From: Pseudomonadota bacterium
GTDB taxonomy: Bacteria > Pseudomonadota > Gammaproteobacteria > Burkholderiales > Eutrophovitaceae
DNA: 37,223 nt
NCBI GenBank assembly: GCA_027624715.1
Contig: JAQBTV010000011.1
Span: forward strand, 1-37,223
Direction of reading: 5' to 3'
Shown here piece by piece: positions 1 through 10,902 of this stretch. Numbering within the stretch: position 1 is the first letter of the stretch; each line of letters starts with the position of its first letter. The notes below the pieces were generated by a model. The model was not told the DNA's origin, did no database searches, and saw only the letters and a program-made list of their open reading frames with translations. The translations under genes and the position numbers were made by a program.

Positions 1-511
1 ATTGCGTATAATGTATATTATGTCAAGTACAGTATTTTTACGCCGCAGGGAGATAAGCGGTCGACTACTTCATGTCACCTCCTCAAGGATTATTTAGTTT
101 CGAACCAATTGACGATATAGATATATATTCTCAAACACATTAATCCGTATTAGTACGATCTCCTGGTTTCTGATACATAAAAAACAATCCAACCTAAAAC
201 CTGACTGCTGAAATATACAAAAGGTACCCTCTTACATCCATCCTATATTGTTACTTTCCCATTTCCTCCCCTAGTGATTGCGCCTCCCCCTATTTCGGCC
301 ATTGTGAAACTCGGAGTAAACACAACTGAACTATTATTAGAAACACCATATAAATATATCGACACAAAACCGAAACTTTATCTGCGAAACATTGTCGCAG
401 ATCTCGTATAGCAAATACTGTCCTGACCATTGCCCATTTGAGCAGAGTTTTTTACCATCTTTTCTGACGAACACAAAGACGTTTATAACTTACAATATGA
501 TGGAGTTAGAA
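1..511. other. AT-rich stretch without a supported gene
   Basis: No convincing gene is seen before the SDR gene. Plus frame 1 is open from the window edge to a TAG at 118-120 (39 codons), but its translation has no recognisable character and this length is expected by chance. A strong minus-strand Shine-Dalgarno (AGGAGGT near 77-84) precedes an ATG that meets a stop after two codons, so it starts no gene. No tRNA, terminator or repeat is evident. Confidence 0.5.
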
Positions 512-1261
512 GTGAATAGGCAGCCGACTGAAACAAGGGCTGAACATATACTCGTTTTTGGGGCTTCTGGAACCATTGGGGCTGCGCTGATCACCCAGCT
601 CAGCAAAACATGCCCTACGGCACACATTCACGGCATATCACGCCAAGCTTTAAGTGGAAACACAAATCTCGCTAACGTAACGTTTTACACTTGCGATTAT
701 GGCTCAGAACACTCACTCGCCAAATTTTCTCAAATGTACAGCGAACAGCATTCTTGTGTTGATCAATTACTAATCGCTTCGGGCGTCTTAACTGCCGTTT
801 TAGATGAACCAGAAAAAAGCGTCAAACAAATCACTGAGGCGGAACTTCTCGAAAACTTTAGAATCAACGCAATCATCCCAGCGCTTATCTTTAAATATTT
901 TTTTGACCTCCTGAATCGAGCTCCTGCGCCTCGCTTTGGCACTCTGTCTGCTCGAATAGGTAGTATTTCAGATAACCGTCTCGGCGGCTGGTACTCCTAT
1001 CGGATGGCAAAATCAGCACTTAATATGTTTATTAAAACAGCATCCCTCGAACTGAAACGCAAAAACAAACAAAGCATTGTCGTGGGTTTGCATCCAGGCA
1101 CTGTCAAAACAAAATTTTCTGAGCGATTCATTAACAATATCACTAAGAACTGTTTTACCTCGGAAGTTGCAGCATCTCAGTTAATTGAAGTATTCACCGA
1201 GCTTACACCTTCTCAATCGGGAGGTTGTTTTGCTTGGGACGGGACAGAAATTCAACCGTAA
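512..1261 (+). CDS. SDR family oxidoreductase (CsgA/C-factor-like)
   Basis: This is a cytoplasmic short-chain dehydrogenase/reductase with an NAD(P)-binding Rossmann fold; the substrate is unknown. The dinucleotide loop GASGTIG follows an LVF strand near the N terminus. A Ser in SARIGSIS and a Y-x3-K (YRMAK) form the catalytic set. The HPGTVKT segment and the C-terminal FAWDGTEI are typical of the CsgA-like branch. The frame is open from a TTG at 392, but the first 35-40 residues do not look like SDR sequence. I prefer the GTG at 512, which has GGAG six bases upstream; ATG at 497 or 500 is the alternative. A photolyase gene follows 272 bases downstream on the same strand. Confidence 0.75.
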   Translation: MNRQPTETRAEHILVFGASGTIGAALITQLSKTCPTAHIHGISRQALSGNTNLANVTFYTCDYGSEHSLAKFSQMYSEQHSCVDQLLIASGVLTAVLDEPEKSVKQITEAELLENFRINAIIPALIFKYFFDLLNRAPAPRFGTLSARIGSISDNRLGGWYSYRMAKSALNMFIKTASLELKRKNKQSIVVGLHPGTVKTKFSERFINNITKNCFTSEVAASQLIEVFTELTPSQSGGCFAWDGTEIQP

Positions 1262-1533
1262 TGTCTCAAGGCGAGTGAGATCTACCTCATCAAATGAGTT
1301 CAGCCTGCCACAGAGGTGATCCCCTCGCATCTTTTTCAGAAAGCAGAAAAGGTTTATCTCCTTGTGGCGATTCCATAGCAAAATCTGGATCATTTAACAG
1401 GATACAAACCTCCTGGGGTATTTGCGTAGTAGTTCATTTTTTCATAGAGCATCTAAACACGCCCTAGGGCACTCATTACTGTATTATATTTGATCATTCC
1501 CTAATGACCCAACTGAGTCGCATCATAAATTAG

Positions 1534-2946
1534 ATGACCGCAAATAGATCTATCGTTTGGTTCAGGAATGACCTGAGACTGTCCGATAACCCTGCGCTCA
1601 GTGCTGCGGTTCTTACTGGTACGATCTTGCCTATTTTCGTGCACGATGAGACTCATTCTGGAGACTTAAAGCCAGGTTCGGCGAGCCGTGTTTGGCTACA
1701 TCACTCTCTTCAGTCCCTGAATAAGAGCCTCAAGGGTCAATTAGCAGTATTTTGTGGTGACCCAATAGAACTGATACCCAAATTAATTGCTCGATATCAA
1801 ATTACGCACGTCTCTTGGAATCGCCAGTACGAGCCTTGGGCAATCAAGAGAGACACGCGCCTCAAGACATCACTGAAAGATTTGGGAGTCATGGTTAACT
1901 CGCATAACGGATCGCTGCTTTGGGAGCCGTGGGATATTCATAAGACTGATAAAACTCCCTACCGTGTGTTCACTCCTTTTTTTCGAACAGGATGCCTCAA
2001 TGCAGCAGAGCCAAGAAAACCTTTGGCTAAACCCTTAAAAATTAGCTTTATAGAGCATCAAGAACCAACTTCCGTTGACACAATCAACCTCATGCCATCA
2101 ATCCCATGGCACGAATCCCTATTAGAGCATTGGGAGATTGGCGAAAACGGCGCGCGAAAACGTCTCACAACATTTATAGCTACAGGAATCAAGAACTATA
2201 AAGATGGTCGAAACTTTCCAGCTGAGACTCATGTTTCATCTCTTTCTCCACACCTTCATTTTGGGGAGATATCACCAAATCAAGCATGGTATGGCGTTCG
2301 TGATCTGCCTATGAACGAGAACATCGACCATTTTTGCAGTGAGCTAGGGTGGCGGGAGTTTTCCTATAATTTACTGTTTCACAATCCAGATCTTTCAACA
2401 ATAAACTTGCAGAAAAAATTTGATAAATTTCCATGGAGTACAGATACGAATCATTTGACTGCTTGGCAACGAGGCCAAACTGGCATTCCATTTGTTGATG
2501 CTGGGATGCGTCAGTTGTGGGCAACTGGGACAATGCACAATAGAGTTCGGATGGTAGTTGGCTCCTTCCTCGTCAAAAACCTCCTATTGGATTGGCGACA
2601 TGGCGAGAGGTGGTTTTGGGACTGCCTATTTGATGCTGATTTAGCAAACAACAGTGCGAGCTGGCAGTGGATTGCAGGCTGCGGGGCTGATGCGGCGCCC
2701 TACTTTCGAATATTTAACCCTGTCACACAAGGCCAAAAATTTGATCCCAGCGGGGCATATATCCGCCAATACCTTCCAGAAATAGCGAAGTTACCCAATA
2801 AATACTTGTGTAATCCATGGGAAGCTCCGTCAGACATCTTAAGCTTAGCGGAAGTGACTCTTGGCATCACTTATCCTAAGCCGATCATTAGTTTATCGAA
2901 CTCAAGATCATTAGCATTACAGGCTTTTGCATCAACGAAAGAATAG
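1534..2946 (+). CDS. phrB: Deoxyribodipyrimidine photolyase (class I CPD)
   Basis: It repairs UV-induced cyclobutane pyrimidine dimers in DNA using light, with FAD as catalytic cofactor and an antenna chromophore bound by the N-terminal domain. The 470 residues match the usual length of about 470. The N terminus has the photolyase hallmark WFRNDLRLSDNPAL. The C-terminal FAD domain shows ELGWREFSYNLL, then FVDAGMRQLWATGTMHNRVRM, DWRHGERWFWD, and the NNSASWQWIAGCGADAAPY stretch that lines the flavin and lesion pocket. The start is the first ATG of the frame. The DUF411 gene begins 32 bases after the stop, so the two may be cotranscribed. Confidence 0.96.
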   Translation: MTANRSIVWFRNDLRLSDNPALSAAVLTGTILPIFVHDETHSGDLKPGSASRVWLHHSLQSLNKSLKGQLAVFCGDPIELIPKLIARYQITHVSWNRQYEPWAIKRDTRLKTSLKDLGVMVNSHNGSLLWEPWDIHKTDKTPYRVFTPFFRTGCLNAAEPRKPLAKPLKISFIEHQEPTSVDTINLMPSIPWHESLLEHWEIGENGARKRLTTFIATGIKNYKDGRNFPAETHVSSLSPHLHFGEISPNQAWYGVRDLPMNENIDHFCSELGWREFSYNLLFHNPDLSTINLQKKFDKFPWSTDTNHLTAWQRGQTGIPFVDAGMRQLWATGTMHNRVRMVVGSFLVKNLLLDWRHGERWFWDCLFDADLANNSASWQWIAGCGADAAPYFRIFNPVTQGQKFDPSGAYIRQYLPEIAKLPNKYLCNPWEAPSDILSLAEVTLGITYPKPIISLSNSRSLALQAFASTKE

Positions 2947-7785: not shown

Positions 7786-9612
7786 TTAATGTAACTGCCG
7801 ATAGATGTGTTCCGCAAGTTTCTTGCTGATACCGTCAACCTTAGCAATCTCCTCAATGCTAGCTGCAGCGACCTCCTTAACACCTCCAAACTGGGAAAGA
7901 AGCCTCTGTCTGCGTTTGGCACCAATACCCTCAATATCCTCAAGGCGAGATTGGGTTCGCTTCTTATCACGCCTTTTTCGATGACCTTGAATAGCGAATC
8001 GATGGGACTCATCACGAATCTGCTGTATCAAATGAAGACCGGAATCATGCGTGTGAAGTTGTATCACCTCCCCCGTTCGGGCATTGATCAGTGTCTCTTG
8101 CCCTGCTTTTCGCTCTACACCTTTACCAACACCGACCACTACAAGGTCATTCAAGCCTAATTCACTAAGAGCACTCAATGATGAAGATAATTGCCCCTTA
8201 CCCCCGTCAATCAATATGAGATCTGGAAGCTTTCCTTCTCCAGCAATAACGCGTTGATACCGACGAGATACAACCTGATTCATAGCCGCGTAGTCATCAC
8301 CCGGCGTAATGTCATCAATATTAAATCGTCTGTACTCTCCAAATTGCATTTCTCCTTGATCGTAAACAACACACGAGGCTACTGTCGCTTCTCCCATGGT
8401 ATGGCTGATATCAAAACACTCGATCCGATTCAAGCTCCCATCTAAACCTAACGCGCTCTGAAGCGCACCCAGGCGATCCATTTGAGTCTCTTTTGTTCGC
8501 AATTGTTGCTGAATCGATAATTCAACATTTCTTTCTGACATTTTTAACCACATTCGACGTTCCGATATAGGATTGTCATTAATACGAACTTTCCGCTTAA
8601 AAGACTGCTCAAAATGCTTGATAAAAACATCTTTATCAATCTTCTTGTTGAGAACGATCTCGTCAGGAACATCACCCACTTGATAATGATGCGTGAGAAA
8701 TGCTTCTAGCGAATCAATCTCATCTTGCTCGGAGGCGTTTTTTGGGTAAAACACCTTGTCGCCACGGTGTGATCCGCCACGTATCACTGTTAAGTTGATG
8801 CCAACTAATCCATCGATACTTGCCACTGTAACGATATCAACATTTCTGTTCCCACTACCAGTTACAAATTGAGTTTCTCGAACCTTAGTGAGTGCGCGTA
8901 TCCGATCACGATGTACTGCAGCGCGCTCAAACTGCATGCTCTCTGAGAAATGAAGCATTTGATTCTCTAGGGACTGAATGACCTCATTTTCTTTACCTTG
9001 AAGAAACATCGATGCATTCGTCACATCGCTTTGATAATCATCTTCTGATATTTGCTTAACGCACGGTCCCGAACAGCGCTGAATTTGATAGAGCAAACAC
9101 GGTCTCGACCGATTCGAAAATACACTATCTTCACAAGTACGCAATCGAAATACCTTTTGTAATAGATGGATACTTTCTCTCACAGCATAGGTATTTGTGA
9201 ATGGCCCGAAAAACCGATCCCTGCTAACCGTAGACCCTCTATACGAACTAAGTTTAGGGTATGCATGCTTGGTCAACAAAATGTAGGGATACGATTTATC
9301 GTCTCTGAAGATAATATTGTATTTTGGCTTTTGCGAATTAATTAAACTGTGTTCTAGCAACAAGGCTTCAGACTCTGACCGTGTTACTGTCGACTCAATG
9401 CGAATAATTTGTTTCACCATTAACTGAATTCTAGGTGACAGACCTCCTTCTTTTCGAAAGTAAGACATCACTCTTTTTTTCAGATTCACCGCTTTACCGA
9501 TATATAAAACGCAATCGTTTTGACCGATCATACGGTAGACACCCGGCAGATCTGGAAGACGTTTGGCCTCTAACAATCCACTAAAATTTGATTCACTATC
9601 CGCTCTTATCAT
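7786..9612 (-). CDS. uvrC: Excinuclease ABC subunit C
   Basis: UvrC is the nuclease of nucleotide excision repair and cuts both sides of a lesion bound by UvrB. The GIY-YIG domain is at the N terminus (PGVYRM and VLYIGKAVNLKKR). A UVR UvrB-binding motif (MQFERAAVHRDRI) follows, then the RNase H-like domain (RIECFDISHTMGEATVAS, with ILIDGGKGQ). A C-terminal helix-hairpin-helix pair (IEGIGAKRRQRLL, VDGISKKLAEHI) completes it. The ATG at 9612 overlaps the stop of the uracil-DNA glycosylase gene as ATGA and gives 608 residues, the normal length. The extra 30 residues open upstream are unlike UvrC. Confidence 0.96.
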   Translation of the reverse strand: MIRADSESNFSGLLEAKRLPDLPGVYRMIGQNDCVLYIGKAVNLKKRVMSYFRKEGGLSPRIQLMVKQIIRIESTVTRSESEALLLEHSLINSQKPKYNIIFRDDKSYPYILLTKHAYPKLSSYRGSTVSRDRFFGPFTNTYAVRESIHLLQKVFRLRTCEDSVFSNRSRPCLLYQIQRCSGPCVKQISEDDYQSDVTNASMFLQGKENEVIQSLENQMLHFSESMQFERAAVHRDRIRALTKVRETQFVTGSGNRNVDIVTVASIDGLVGINLTVIRGGSHRGDKVFYPKNASEQDEIDSLEAFLTHHYQVGDVPDEIVLNKKIDKDVFIKHFEQSFKRKVRINDNPISERRMWLKMSERNVELSIQQQLRTKETQMDRLGALQSALGLDGSLNRIECFDISHTMGEATVASCVVYDQGEMQFGEYRRFNIDDITPGDDYAAMNQVVSRRYQRVIAGEGKLPDLILIDGGKGQLSSSLSALSELGLNDLVVVGVGKGVERKAGQETLINARTGEVIQLHTHDSGLHLIQQIRDESHRFAIQGHRKRRDKKRTQSRLEDIEGIGAKRRQRLLSQFGGVKEVAAASIEEIAKVDGISKKLAEHIYRQLH

Positions 9613-10256
9613 TTTCGATCGAGTAACTCTCTCGCCTTCAAAAAAACACTTCTGAACATCTCGTGCGTTAACCGCCGAGTTTGGGTGTTGTACCTGGAGC
9701 AATGATAACTATCAATCATACGCAGATTAAAATTAAGGTCATGAATCGATTCATGACCGAACGGATACAAAGATTTCTTGAGGTTTAATGCCTTCAATAC
9801 TGCAGAATGCGCAACTGAACCCAGCGCTATGATGATCCCTCCTTTTGGGACCTGCTCTAATTCTTCCAGAAGAAAGGTATTACAATTATTTACCTCAGAC
9901 CCAATTGGCTTATTTTGGGGCGGCAAACACCGTACAGCATTCGTTATACGACAATCTTTAAGCTCAAGGTCATCCGATTTGGATTCAGATACAGAACGGG
10001 TCGAGAACCCTGAGTCATAAATCGTTTGATACAAAAGCACACCTGCATGATCTCCGGTAAAAGGACGTCCCGTTCGATTTGAGCCATGCATTCCGGGCGC
10101 AAGACCCACGATCAGCAAACGAGCATTCGGATCACCAAATGACGGGACTGGGAGTGCGAAATAGTCGGGACAATCACCCCTCACTTGATTCAAAAAACTC
10201 ACAAGCCGTGGGCACTTACGACACCCTAAACTAAACGATTTTTTTTTAATGGGCAT
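9609..10256 (-). CDS. Uracil-DNA glycosylase, family 5 (UDGb)
   Basis: It removes uracil, and in this family also hypoxanthine, from DNA to start base excision repair. The diagnostic segment GLAPGMHGSNRTGRPFTGD is present, as is the C-terminal SYHCSRYNTQTRRLT loop. Four cysteines fit the 4Fe-4S cluster of families 4 and 5: CRKC near the N terminus, then Cys in AVRCLPP and in NNCNTF. The frame is open to 10388, across the start of the divergent efp, so the real start must be later. ATG at 10256 places the CRKC cluster near the N terminus; ATG at 10310 is possible. The stop overlaps the uvrC start by four bases. Confidence 0.87.
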   Translation of the reverse strand: MPIKKKSFSLGCRKCPRLVSFLNQVRGDCPDYFALPVPSFGDPNARLLIVGLAPGMHGSNRTGRPFTGDHAGVLLYQTIYDSGFSTRSVSESKSDDLELKDCRITNAVRCLPPQNKPIGSEVNNCNTFLLEELEQVPKGGIIIALGSVAHSAVLKALNLKKSLYPFGHESIHDLNFNLRMIDSYHCSRYNTQTRRLTHEMFRSVFLKARELLDRK

Positions 10257-10298: not shown

Positions 10299-10332
10299 CT
10301 TACCTTTCATATTTAATTTGAGCGAGGGTACC

Positions 10333-10902
10333 GTGGCAAAAGTCCTTGCAACCGAAGTTCGAGTAGGAAATTTAATTGAGCTCGACAAACGAGTTTGGCG
10401 AGTTGTGAAATCGTACCATGTTCACGTTGGTGGTCGCGGCGGAGCTTTCATGCAACTCGAGCTTAAAGATGTTGAAGGCGGCACCAAAAGGAATGAACGT
10501 ATTCGAACCGATGAAAAGATAGAGCGTGCATTCGTGGAGACTCGTGAGATGCAATACCTCTATCAAGACGGCGATAATTATGTCTTCATGGATCAGGAGA
10601 GCTACGAACAGCTCAATTTACCTTCTGATTTCTTAGAAGGCCAAGCAGGCTATTTGTTACCAAACGGCGACGTTAGAGTGAATATGTATAGTGATCGACC
10701 GATCGGGATTGAATTGCCAACATCAGTAGTCTTGACTATTAGTGATACTGAACCTGGCATTAAAGGTGCCACAGCTACAGGATCTTATAAACCAGCTAAA
10801 ATGGAAACGGGTATCACAGTCGCTGTCCCCCAGTTTGTTGAAACTGGGGAAAAAATTAAGGTCAACACAGATACCGGTGAGTATATGGAGCGATCTAACT
10901 AA
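10333..10902 (+). CDS. efp: Elongation factor P
   Basis: EF-P binds the ribosome between the P and E sites and rescues stalling at consecutive prolines. The 189 residues show the three-domain pattern: an N-terminal KOW-like domain (LATEVRVGNLIELDKRVWRV), a central OB domain (MQYLYQDGDNYVFMDQESYE) and a C-terminal OB domain (DTEPGIKGATATGSYKPA, VNTDTGEYMER). The start is GTG at 10333 with GAGGG four bases upstream; the frame is open to TTG at 10318. The loop that normally carries a modified lysine (PGKGGAF) reads VGGRGGAF here, so the tip residue is Arg35. The stop overlaps the convergent nagZ stop by a few bases. Confidence 0.94.
   Translation: MAKVLATEVRVGNLIELDKRVWRVVKSYHVHVGGRGGAFMQLELKDVEGGTKRNERIRTDEKIERAFVETREMQYLYQDGDNYVFMDQESYEQLNLPSDFLEGQAGYLLPNGDVRVNMYSDRPIGIELPTSVVLTISDTEPGIKGATATGSYKPAKMETGITVAVPQFVETGEKIKVNTDTGEYMERSN

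Follow-up and report, generated by a model that had tools for sequence, protein, structure and literature searches.

EF-P eases ribosomes past consecutive prolines. The efp gene on this contig raises the question of how an EF-P with arginine at its tip works when the rest of the protein resembles lysine-type EF-P, and whether that arginine is modified at all. We analysed the whole stretch of DNA carrying it (37,223 nucleotides, hereafter the window), which is contig C11 of a 1.77-Mb genome that is 97.2% complete (G000). The protein scored 229.5 bits against TIGR00038 (cut-off 185.8), all three Pfam domains (EFP_N, EFP and Elong-fact-P_C) exceeded their cut-offs, and a PF01132 profile search of the genome returned this protein as its single match. 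Codons 29–39 (CAT GTT CAC GTT GGT GGT CGC GGC GGA GCT TTC) specify H29 V H V G33 G R35 G G A F39, bearing out the Arg35 (CGC) tip that a first-pass annotation had read from the sequence. The span marked by that annotation, 10432–10449, covers GRGGAF, and the full GGRGGAF begins at 10429. Its treatment of GGR at the tip as an oddity did not hold up: passages in PMC4739656 give the EarP-type loop of Neisseria meningitidis as GGRSSAK, and one row of our alignment (L040) reads GGRSAAV.

Table 1. Features of the window discussed in the text (positions from the first nucleotide of the window).
Feature	Position	Strand	Remarks
Short-chain dehydrogenase gene	392–1261	+	Left flank of lost rml cluster
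Decayed rmlC 3' remnant	1293–1461	-	tblastn E 5.8e-7, 43% over 56 aa
DNA photolyase gene	1534–2946	+	Right flank of lost rml cluster
uvrC	7786–9702	-	Next neighbour upstream; longest frame, start not fixed
Uracil-DNA-glycosylase-like gene	9609–10256	-	Divergent neighbour of EF-P; start not fixed
GAGGG, probable ribosome-binding site	10324–10328	+	Read from sequence; 4 bases 5' of start
EF-P gene	10333–10902	+	GTG start, 189 aa; stop at 10900–10902 included
HVHV stretch holding the extra residue	10417–10428	+	Aligned lysine-type relatives: HV then K or T
Tip loop GGRGGAF	10429–10449	+	Arg35 codon CGC at 10435–10437

At the tip itself the protein is not lysine-type, with Arg35 in place of lysine and Gly33 in place of the proline at −2. 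The first-pass annotation had overlooked a further difference, a one-residue extension of the loop before the tip. Relative to every aligned lysine-type or EarP-type row with a readable loop, the window EF-P is one residue longer ahead of the tip and unchanged in length behind it (HVHVGGRGGAF against HV-KPGKGGAF in lysine-type proteins); at this point its closest lysine-type relatives have HV-KPGK or HV-TPGK, and alignments to five PDB entries, Thermus EF-P among them, placed the same single gap before the tip. HVHV might be a doubled His-Val (CATGTT CACGTT), a guess from the codons: across 81 sequences the two hexamers agreed at 4 to 6 of 6 bases, which is a weak sign of repeat origin because the same amino acids force most of the matching bases. 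An AlphaFold2 model built from 17 rows (mean pLDDT 75.3; residues 31–40 at 84; C-terminal domain poor) placed strands at 20–31 and 38–46 on either side of residues 32–37, and we dropped it as an argument for the reach of the tip, the model being too weak.

The extended loop recurs in relatives of the window EF-P. HVHVGGRGGA was present in 23 of 23 rows of the window type from a whole-protein search, and at all 80 loci kept as the best of 541 from a pattern scan (74 continuing as AFM and 6 as AYM), an agreement that is partly by construction because one of the two scan patterns contained the motif and the best 80 were kept. The close relatives among these 80 belong to the Betaproteobacteria/Burkholderiales and include Nitrosospira, Nitrosovibrio and Nitrosomonas. 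Of 300 genomes sampled from the window's order, 33 contained the exact pattern HVHVGGxGG; they are spread over 12 of 51 families, and the tip codon is CGN in every one of them. Among 299 genomes of the phylum, the window's genome aside, the best match was a lysine-type protein from another genome of the same order (G031; 58% identity), and the best EF-P matches from outside the order reached 45–51%. By sequence, the motif marks out a clade of betaproteobacteria, Nitrosospira and Nitrosomonas among them, and in these samples it was confined to betaproteobacteria. The loop is under constraint, because it is near-invariant over proteins that are 65–95% identical, in genomes of 1.2–6.8 Mb. The first-pass annotation would have given up its reading if a large group of near relatives sharing this loop were already known to be unmodified or EarP-modified; such a clade exists, and the open-access literature searched contained no statement of its modification state.

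EarP is largely missing where the motif is found. The first-pass annotation had reported no earP, epmA or epmB in the window, and the same now holds for the genome: EarP (PF10093) had no match there, nor in any of the 17 genomes of its family, EpmB had no match, and nothing exceeded the curated cut-off for EpmA. PF10093 matched 249 of the 300 genomes of the order: 2 of the 33 with the motif (G027 and G060) and 247 of the remaining 267 (Fisher p 2e-26, kinship ignored). Put the other way, EarP was absent from 31 of 33 motif genomes and from 20 of 267 without the motif, so that 20 of the 300 had neither. The exchange is visible within families. In family f6, represented by one genus, G070 and G153 have the motif without EarP and G021 and G114 have EarP without the motif; family f11 comprises six motif genomes together with G117 and G192, which have EarP; and in family f35, G173 has the motif and G050 and G094 have EarP. 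The two genomes with both, G027 and G060, each encode a second, separate EF-P with the EarP-type loop SGRNAS, which adjoins earP in G060 and lies on a different contig from earP in G027.

The enzymes of lysine-type EF-P gave no better candidate. The EpmA model matched all 61 relatives searched, 0 of 61 over its cut-off, and its strong matches were frames of about 500 aa, a size from which we infer that they are lysyl-tRNA synthetases; EpmB was over its cut-off in 0 of 61. In the window's genome the lysyl-tRNA-synthetase-like match is split between C29:3566-4237 (413 aa) and C6:112861-113229 (148 aa), which may reflect either a break in the assembly or a genuinely divided gene. We also noted two unusual EF-Ps in the order. 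The protein of G056 (L038/L178; family f41) has the loop KSGTGGGAF, with neither arginine nor lysine at the tip; all eight sampled genomes of that family lacked both EarP and the GGR motif, the loop having been read for G056 alone. In G145 a very divergent second EF-P (L205, C48:42692-43234) with the loop HAGSGKFGSM occurs alongside the GGR type.

The supply of dTDP-rhamnose also seems to have been lost in the window's genome. There the epimerase gene rmlC had no match at 97.2% completeness and rmlD none over its cut-off (best E 4.4e-11, in a family with many relatives), and rmlA, rmlB and rmlD had no match within the window at 1e-5. The loss looks real because a remnant of rmlC lies at the very site where the relative G002 keeps rmlC-A-D-B. 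This remnant corresponds to about the last 56 residues of RmlC, in two frames with stop codons and in the same orientation as in G002, where the gene order is dehydrogenase, rmlC, rmlA, rmlD, rmlB, photolyase and DUF411; same-genus genomes keep the cluster. We rejected an assembly gap at the window's left edge as the reason for the missing rmlC, the flanking dehydrogenase and photolyase genes being adjacent with the remnant between them. In G001, G002 and G006 the distance between rmlC and efp is about 11 kb, which in the window would reach past its left edge, and the motif genome G011 has just a 64-residue rmlC fragment, under the cut-off, about 9 kb from efp. Across the order rmlC had no match in 15 of 31 genomes with the motif and without EarP, against 8 of 249 EarP-bearing genomes (Fisher p 3.5e-11, kinship ignored), some of the genomes being drafts in which absence is weaker evidence. 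It was over its cut-off in 17 of 33 motif genomes, making the loss frequent and not universal. Among the 61 relatives, the cut-offs for rmlC and rmlD were both exceeded in 7 of 21 genomes that have the motif and no EarP, compared with 32 of 34 genomes with EarP.

We propose, at odds only a little better than even, that the window EF-P belongs to a third lineage of arginine-tip EF-Ps, one that is EarP-independent and works unmodified through its longer loop. Arg35 would stay unmodified, and the longer loop would extend the reach of its guanidinium so that it holds the CCA end of the P-site prolyl-tRNA, doing the work done elsewhere by beta-lysine or rhamnose, as has been proposed for EfpL. Where it is present the lineage replaces the EarP/EF-P pair, which would free the cell from a need for dTDP-rhamnose in translation. 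A more historical version of the idea, to which we give somewhat less than an even chance, is that a betaproteobacterial lineage, with ammonia oxidisers among its members, swapped the EarP/rhamnose EF-P for an arginine-tip EF-P that owes its modification-free activity to the one added loop residue and derives from the lysine type independently of EfpL, and that dTDP-rhamnose was then repeatedly lost.

Published work offers precedents on both sides. Passages in PMC11611912 report that Arg33 of Escherichia coli EfpL is unmodified by mass spectrometry and propose that its loop extension compensates. According to parts of PMC4739656, EF-P with unmodified Arg32 works to some extent on the ribosome of N. 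meningitidis, also a betaproteobacterium, where its effect is weak; in E. coli it is inactive or even inhibitory. The K34R variant of E. coli EF-P retains 20% activity and P32G abolishes activity, as stated in sections of PMC6544042. Since an unmodified arginine performs poorly in a loop of 7 residues, our reading leans on the residue added before the tip. In favour of an unmodified Arg35 are the absence of EarP, the swaps within families f6, f11 and f35, the loss of rmlC with its remnant, and an extra loop residue as in EfpL. Counting against it, 17 of 33 motif genomes retain rmlC, and EfpL has two added residues together with a proline at −3, where the window loop has one and no such proline.

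The main rival, which we regard as rather unlikely, is that an enzyme with no relation to EarP, independent of dTDP-rhamnose and encoded away from efp, adds an unknown modification to Arg35. Other activated types of EF-P do extend the tip residue, bare arginine or lysine tips in 7-residue loops are described as weak in parts of PMC6544042 and PMC4739656, and HVHVGGRGGA is near-invariant in the clade, as a recognition site might be. Against this, no candidate enzyme turned up near efp, and EfpL shows, in the passages of PMC11611912 cited above, that an unmodified arginine can be a native state. The efp locus is fixed across the clade, because the uracil-DNA-glycosylase-like gene and/or uvrC lies beside efp on the opposite strand at 72 of the 73 loci where the upstream sequence extended far enough (a narrower search, for the former alone, found it at 45 of 75 loci); its downstream side is variable, with nagZ within 2.5 kb at 46 of 73. 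In the gene clusters around the best 80 of the 541 loci we saw no likely modifier gene. A modifier need not adjoin its target, however: earP lies away from the EarP-type EF-P in G027. Of the three options left by the first-pass annotation, an unmodified protein and an unknown modification both still stand, and the third, an EarP substrate, is now unlikely because the genome lacks EarP and its dTDP-rhamnose genes have been lost.

A second alternative, an improbable one, would place the window EF-P within EfpL, as a member whose loop has shortened, or on an early branch from it, the arginine and extra residue being inherited. The two proteins do share the arginine and a single added residue ahead of the tip, and the window EF-P scored higher with an EfpL model (160.2 bits, the loop included in the score) than did the lysine-type (139.1) and EarP-type (125.4) proteins scanned. 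These 160.2 bits nevertheless lie below the model's cut-off of 216, as do the 143.7 of 264.05 bits obtained with a second EfpL model; no residue is added after the tip, position −3 is valine instead of proline, and the protein has no lysine-type EF-P beside it as a paralogue, being the one EF-P in the genome.

Phylogeny bears on this kinship as well. We built a tree of 65 rows with the loop columns removed, and a second of 63 rows without the long rows L038 and L205; L196, L201, L203 and L204 (cut at the loop by tblastn), L192, and L176, L177 and L174 (repeats of L195, L200 and L184) had been left out beforehand. The motif type formed one clade (support 99/88 with 65 rows and 95/88 with 63), next to the lysine-type EF-P of G031 (100/94) and then to eight lysine types of families f76, f96 and f109 (97/92), and apart from the EarP-type and EfpL clades in the 65-row tree. 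The clade was kept in 288 of the 300 bootstrap trees examined out of 1,000; 294 of these 300 joined it to the G031 protein, 286 contained it together with that protein and the eight lysine types, and none placed it with EfpL or with the EarP type alone. AU tests did not reject a grouping with EfpL (p 0.374 for the 65-row set and 0.215 for the 63-row set), a point in favour of EfpL kinship, and gave a borderline rejection of a joint clade with the EarP type (p 0.0898 and 0.0437). We favour an origin from lysine-type EF-P on these sequence comparisons, in line with the lysine-type body that the first-pass annotation had recognized. The G031 protein itself (L036) has the loop PGKGGAF in a genome without EarP, EarP being present in seven other sampled genomes of its genus (g19), and was probably acquired by gene transfer; G031 also has a weak EpmB-like match (5e-26, under the cut-off).

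Rhamnosylation of Arg35, by a diverged EarP missed by PF10093 or by a promiscuous glycosyltransferase, is very improbable. EarP can modify a non-cognate protein, E. coli K34R EF-P, according to sections of PMC6544042; G027 and G060 hold both types of EF-P together with EarP, and rmlC is retained in the 17 motif genomes counted above. PF10093 did, however, pick up diverged EarPs in 34 of the 61 relatives, down to 83.7 bits (cut-off 25), and none in the 17 genomes of the window's family. In the window's genome rmlC gave no match and rmlD none over its cut-off, and what is left of rmlC at its former site is decayed. That the protein has degenerated into a weak EF-P, and is tolerated since a genome as small as 1.77 Mb makes little demand on polyproline rescue, is hardly credible given a loop so nearly invariant across proteins 65–95% identical in genomes of up to 6.8 Mb.

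Four known systems come closest. The window EF-P shares with the EarP-type EF-P of Pseudomonas, Neisseria and most Burkholderiales the arginine at the tip, the lack of a proline at −2 and the three domains; it differs in occurring without EarP (31 of 33 genomes), in the residue added before the tip, in forming a separate clade, and in the loss of dTDP-rhamnose genes from the window's genome and several relatives. With EfpL (YeiP), found in gammaproteobacteria and others, it has in common the tip arginine, a loop extended before the tip and no need of EarP. EfpL, in contrast, has one residue added before and one after the tip and the proline at −3, and the window protein is below the EfpL model cut-offs and is the cell's only EF-P; true EfpL occurred in 7 of 14 genomes scanned, the window's genome not among them. 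The aligned loop has 8 residues in the window EF-P and 9 in EfpL. A loop extension is said, in passages of PMC11611912, to distinguish EfpL from all other EF-Ps, and the loop wording of that definition alone would include the window EF-P. Lysine-type (PGKG) proteins are closest by sequence and in the tree (58% to the G031 EF-P, 48–51% to the next), from which the window EF-P departs by the lysine-to-arginine change, the lost proline at −2, the added residue and the lack of EpmA or EpmB over cut-off. EF-P of Thermus thermophilus (PDB 1ueb) has a tip arginine in a GRGGA loop, but no extra residue before its tip and a distant sequence (139.9 bits); EarP had no match in the control genome of Thermus composti, the sole Thermus checked. 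The window EF-P is neither of the EarP type, by the features tested, nor an EfpL, two of whose defining features it lacks, though it may work like EfpL.

The clade is a second case of arginine combined with a longer loop, here in the cell's only EF-P, and it bears on why EF-P needs a costly modification at its tip and how a cell can do without one. Cultured Nitrosospira and Nitrosomonas carry the loop, which puts the matter within immediate experimental reach. A tip arginine in a genome should be taken with caution as a sign of rhamnosylation, and, if our proposal is true, the dTDP-rhamnose pathway would be dispensable for translation wherever the swap happened.
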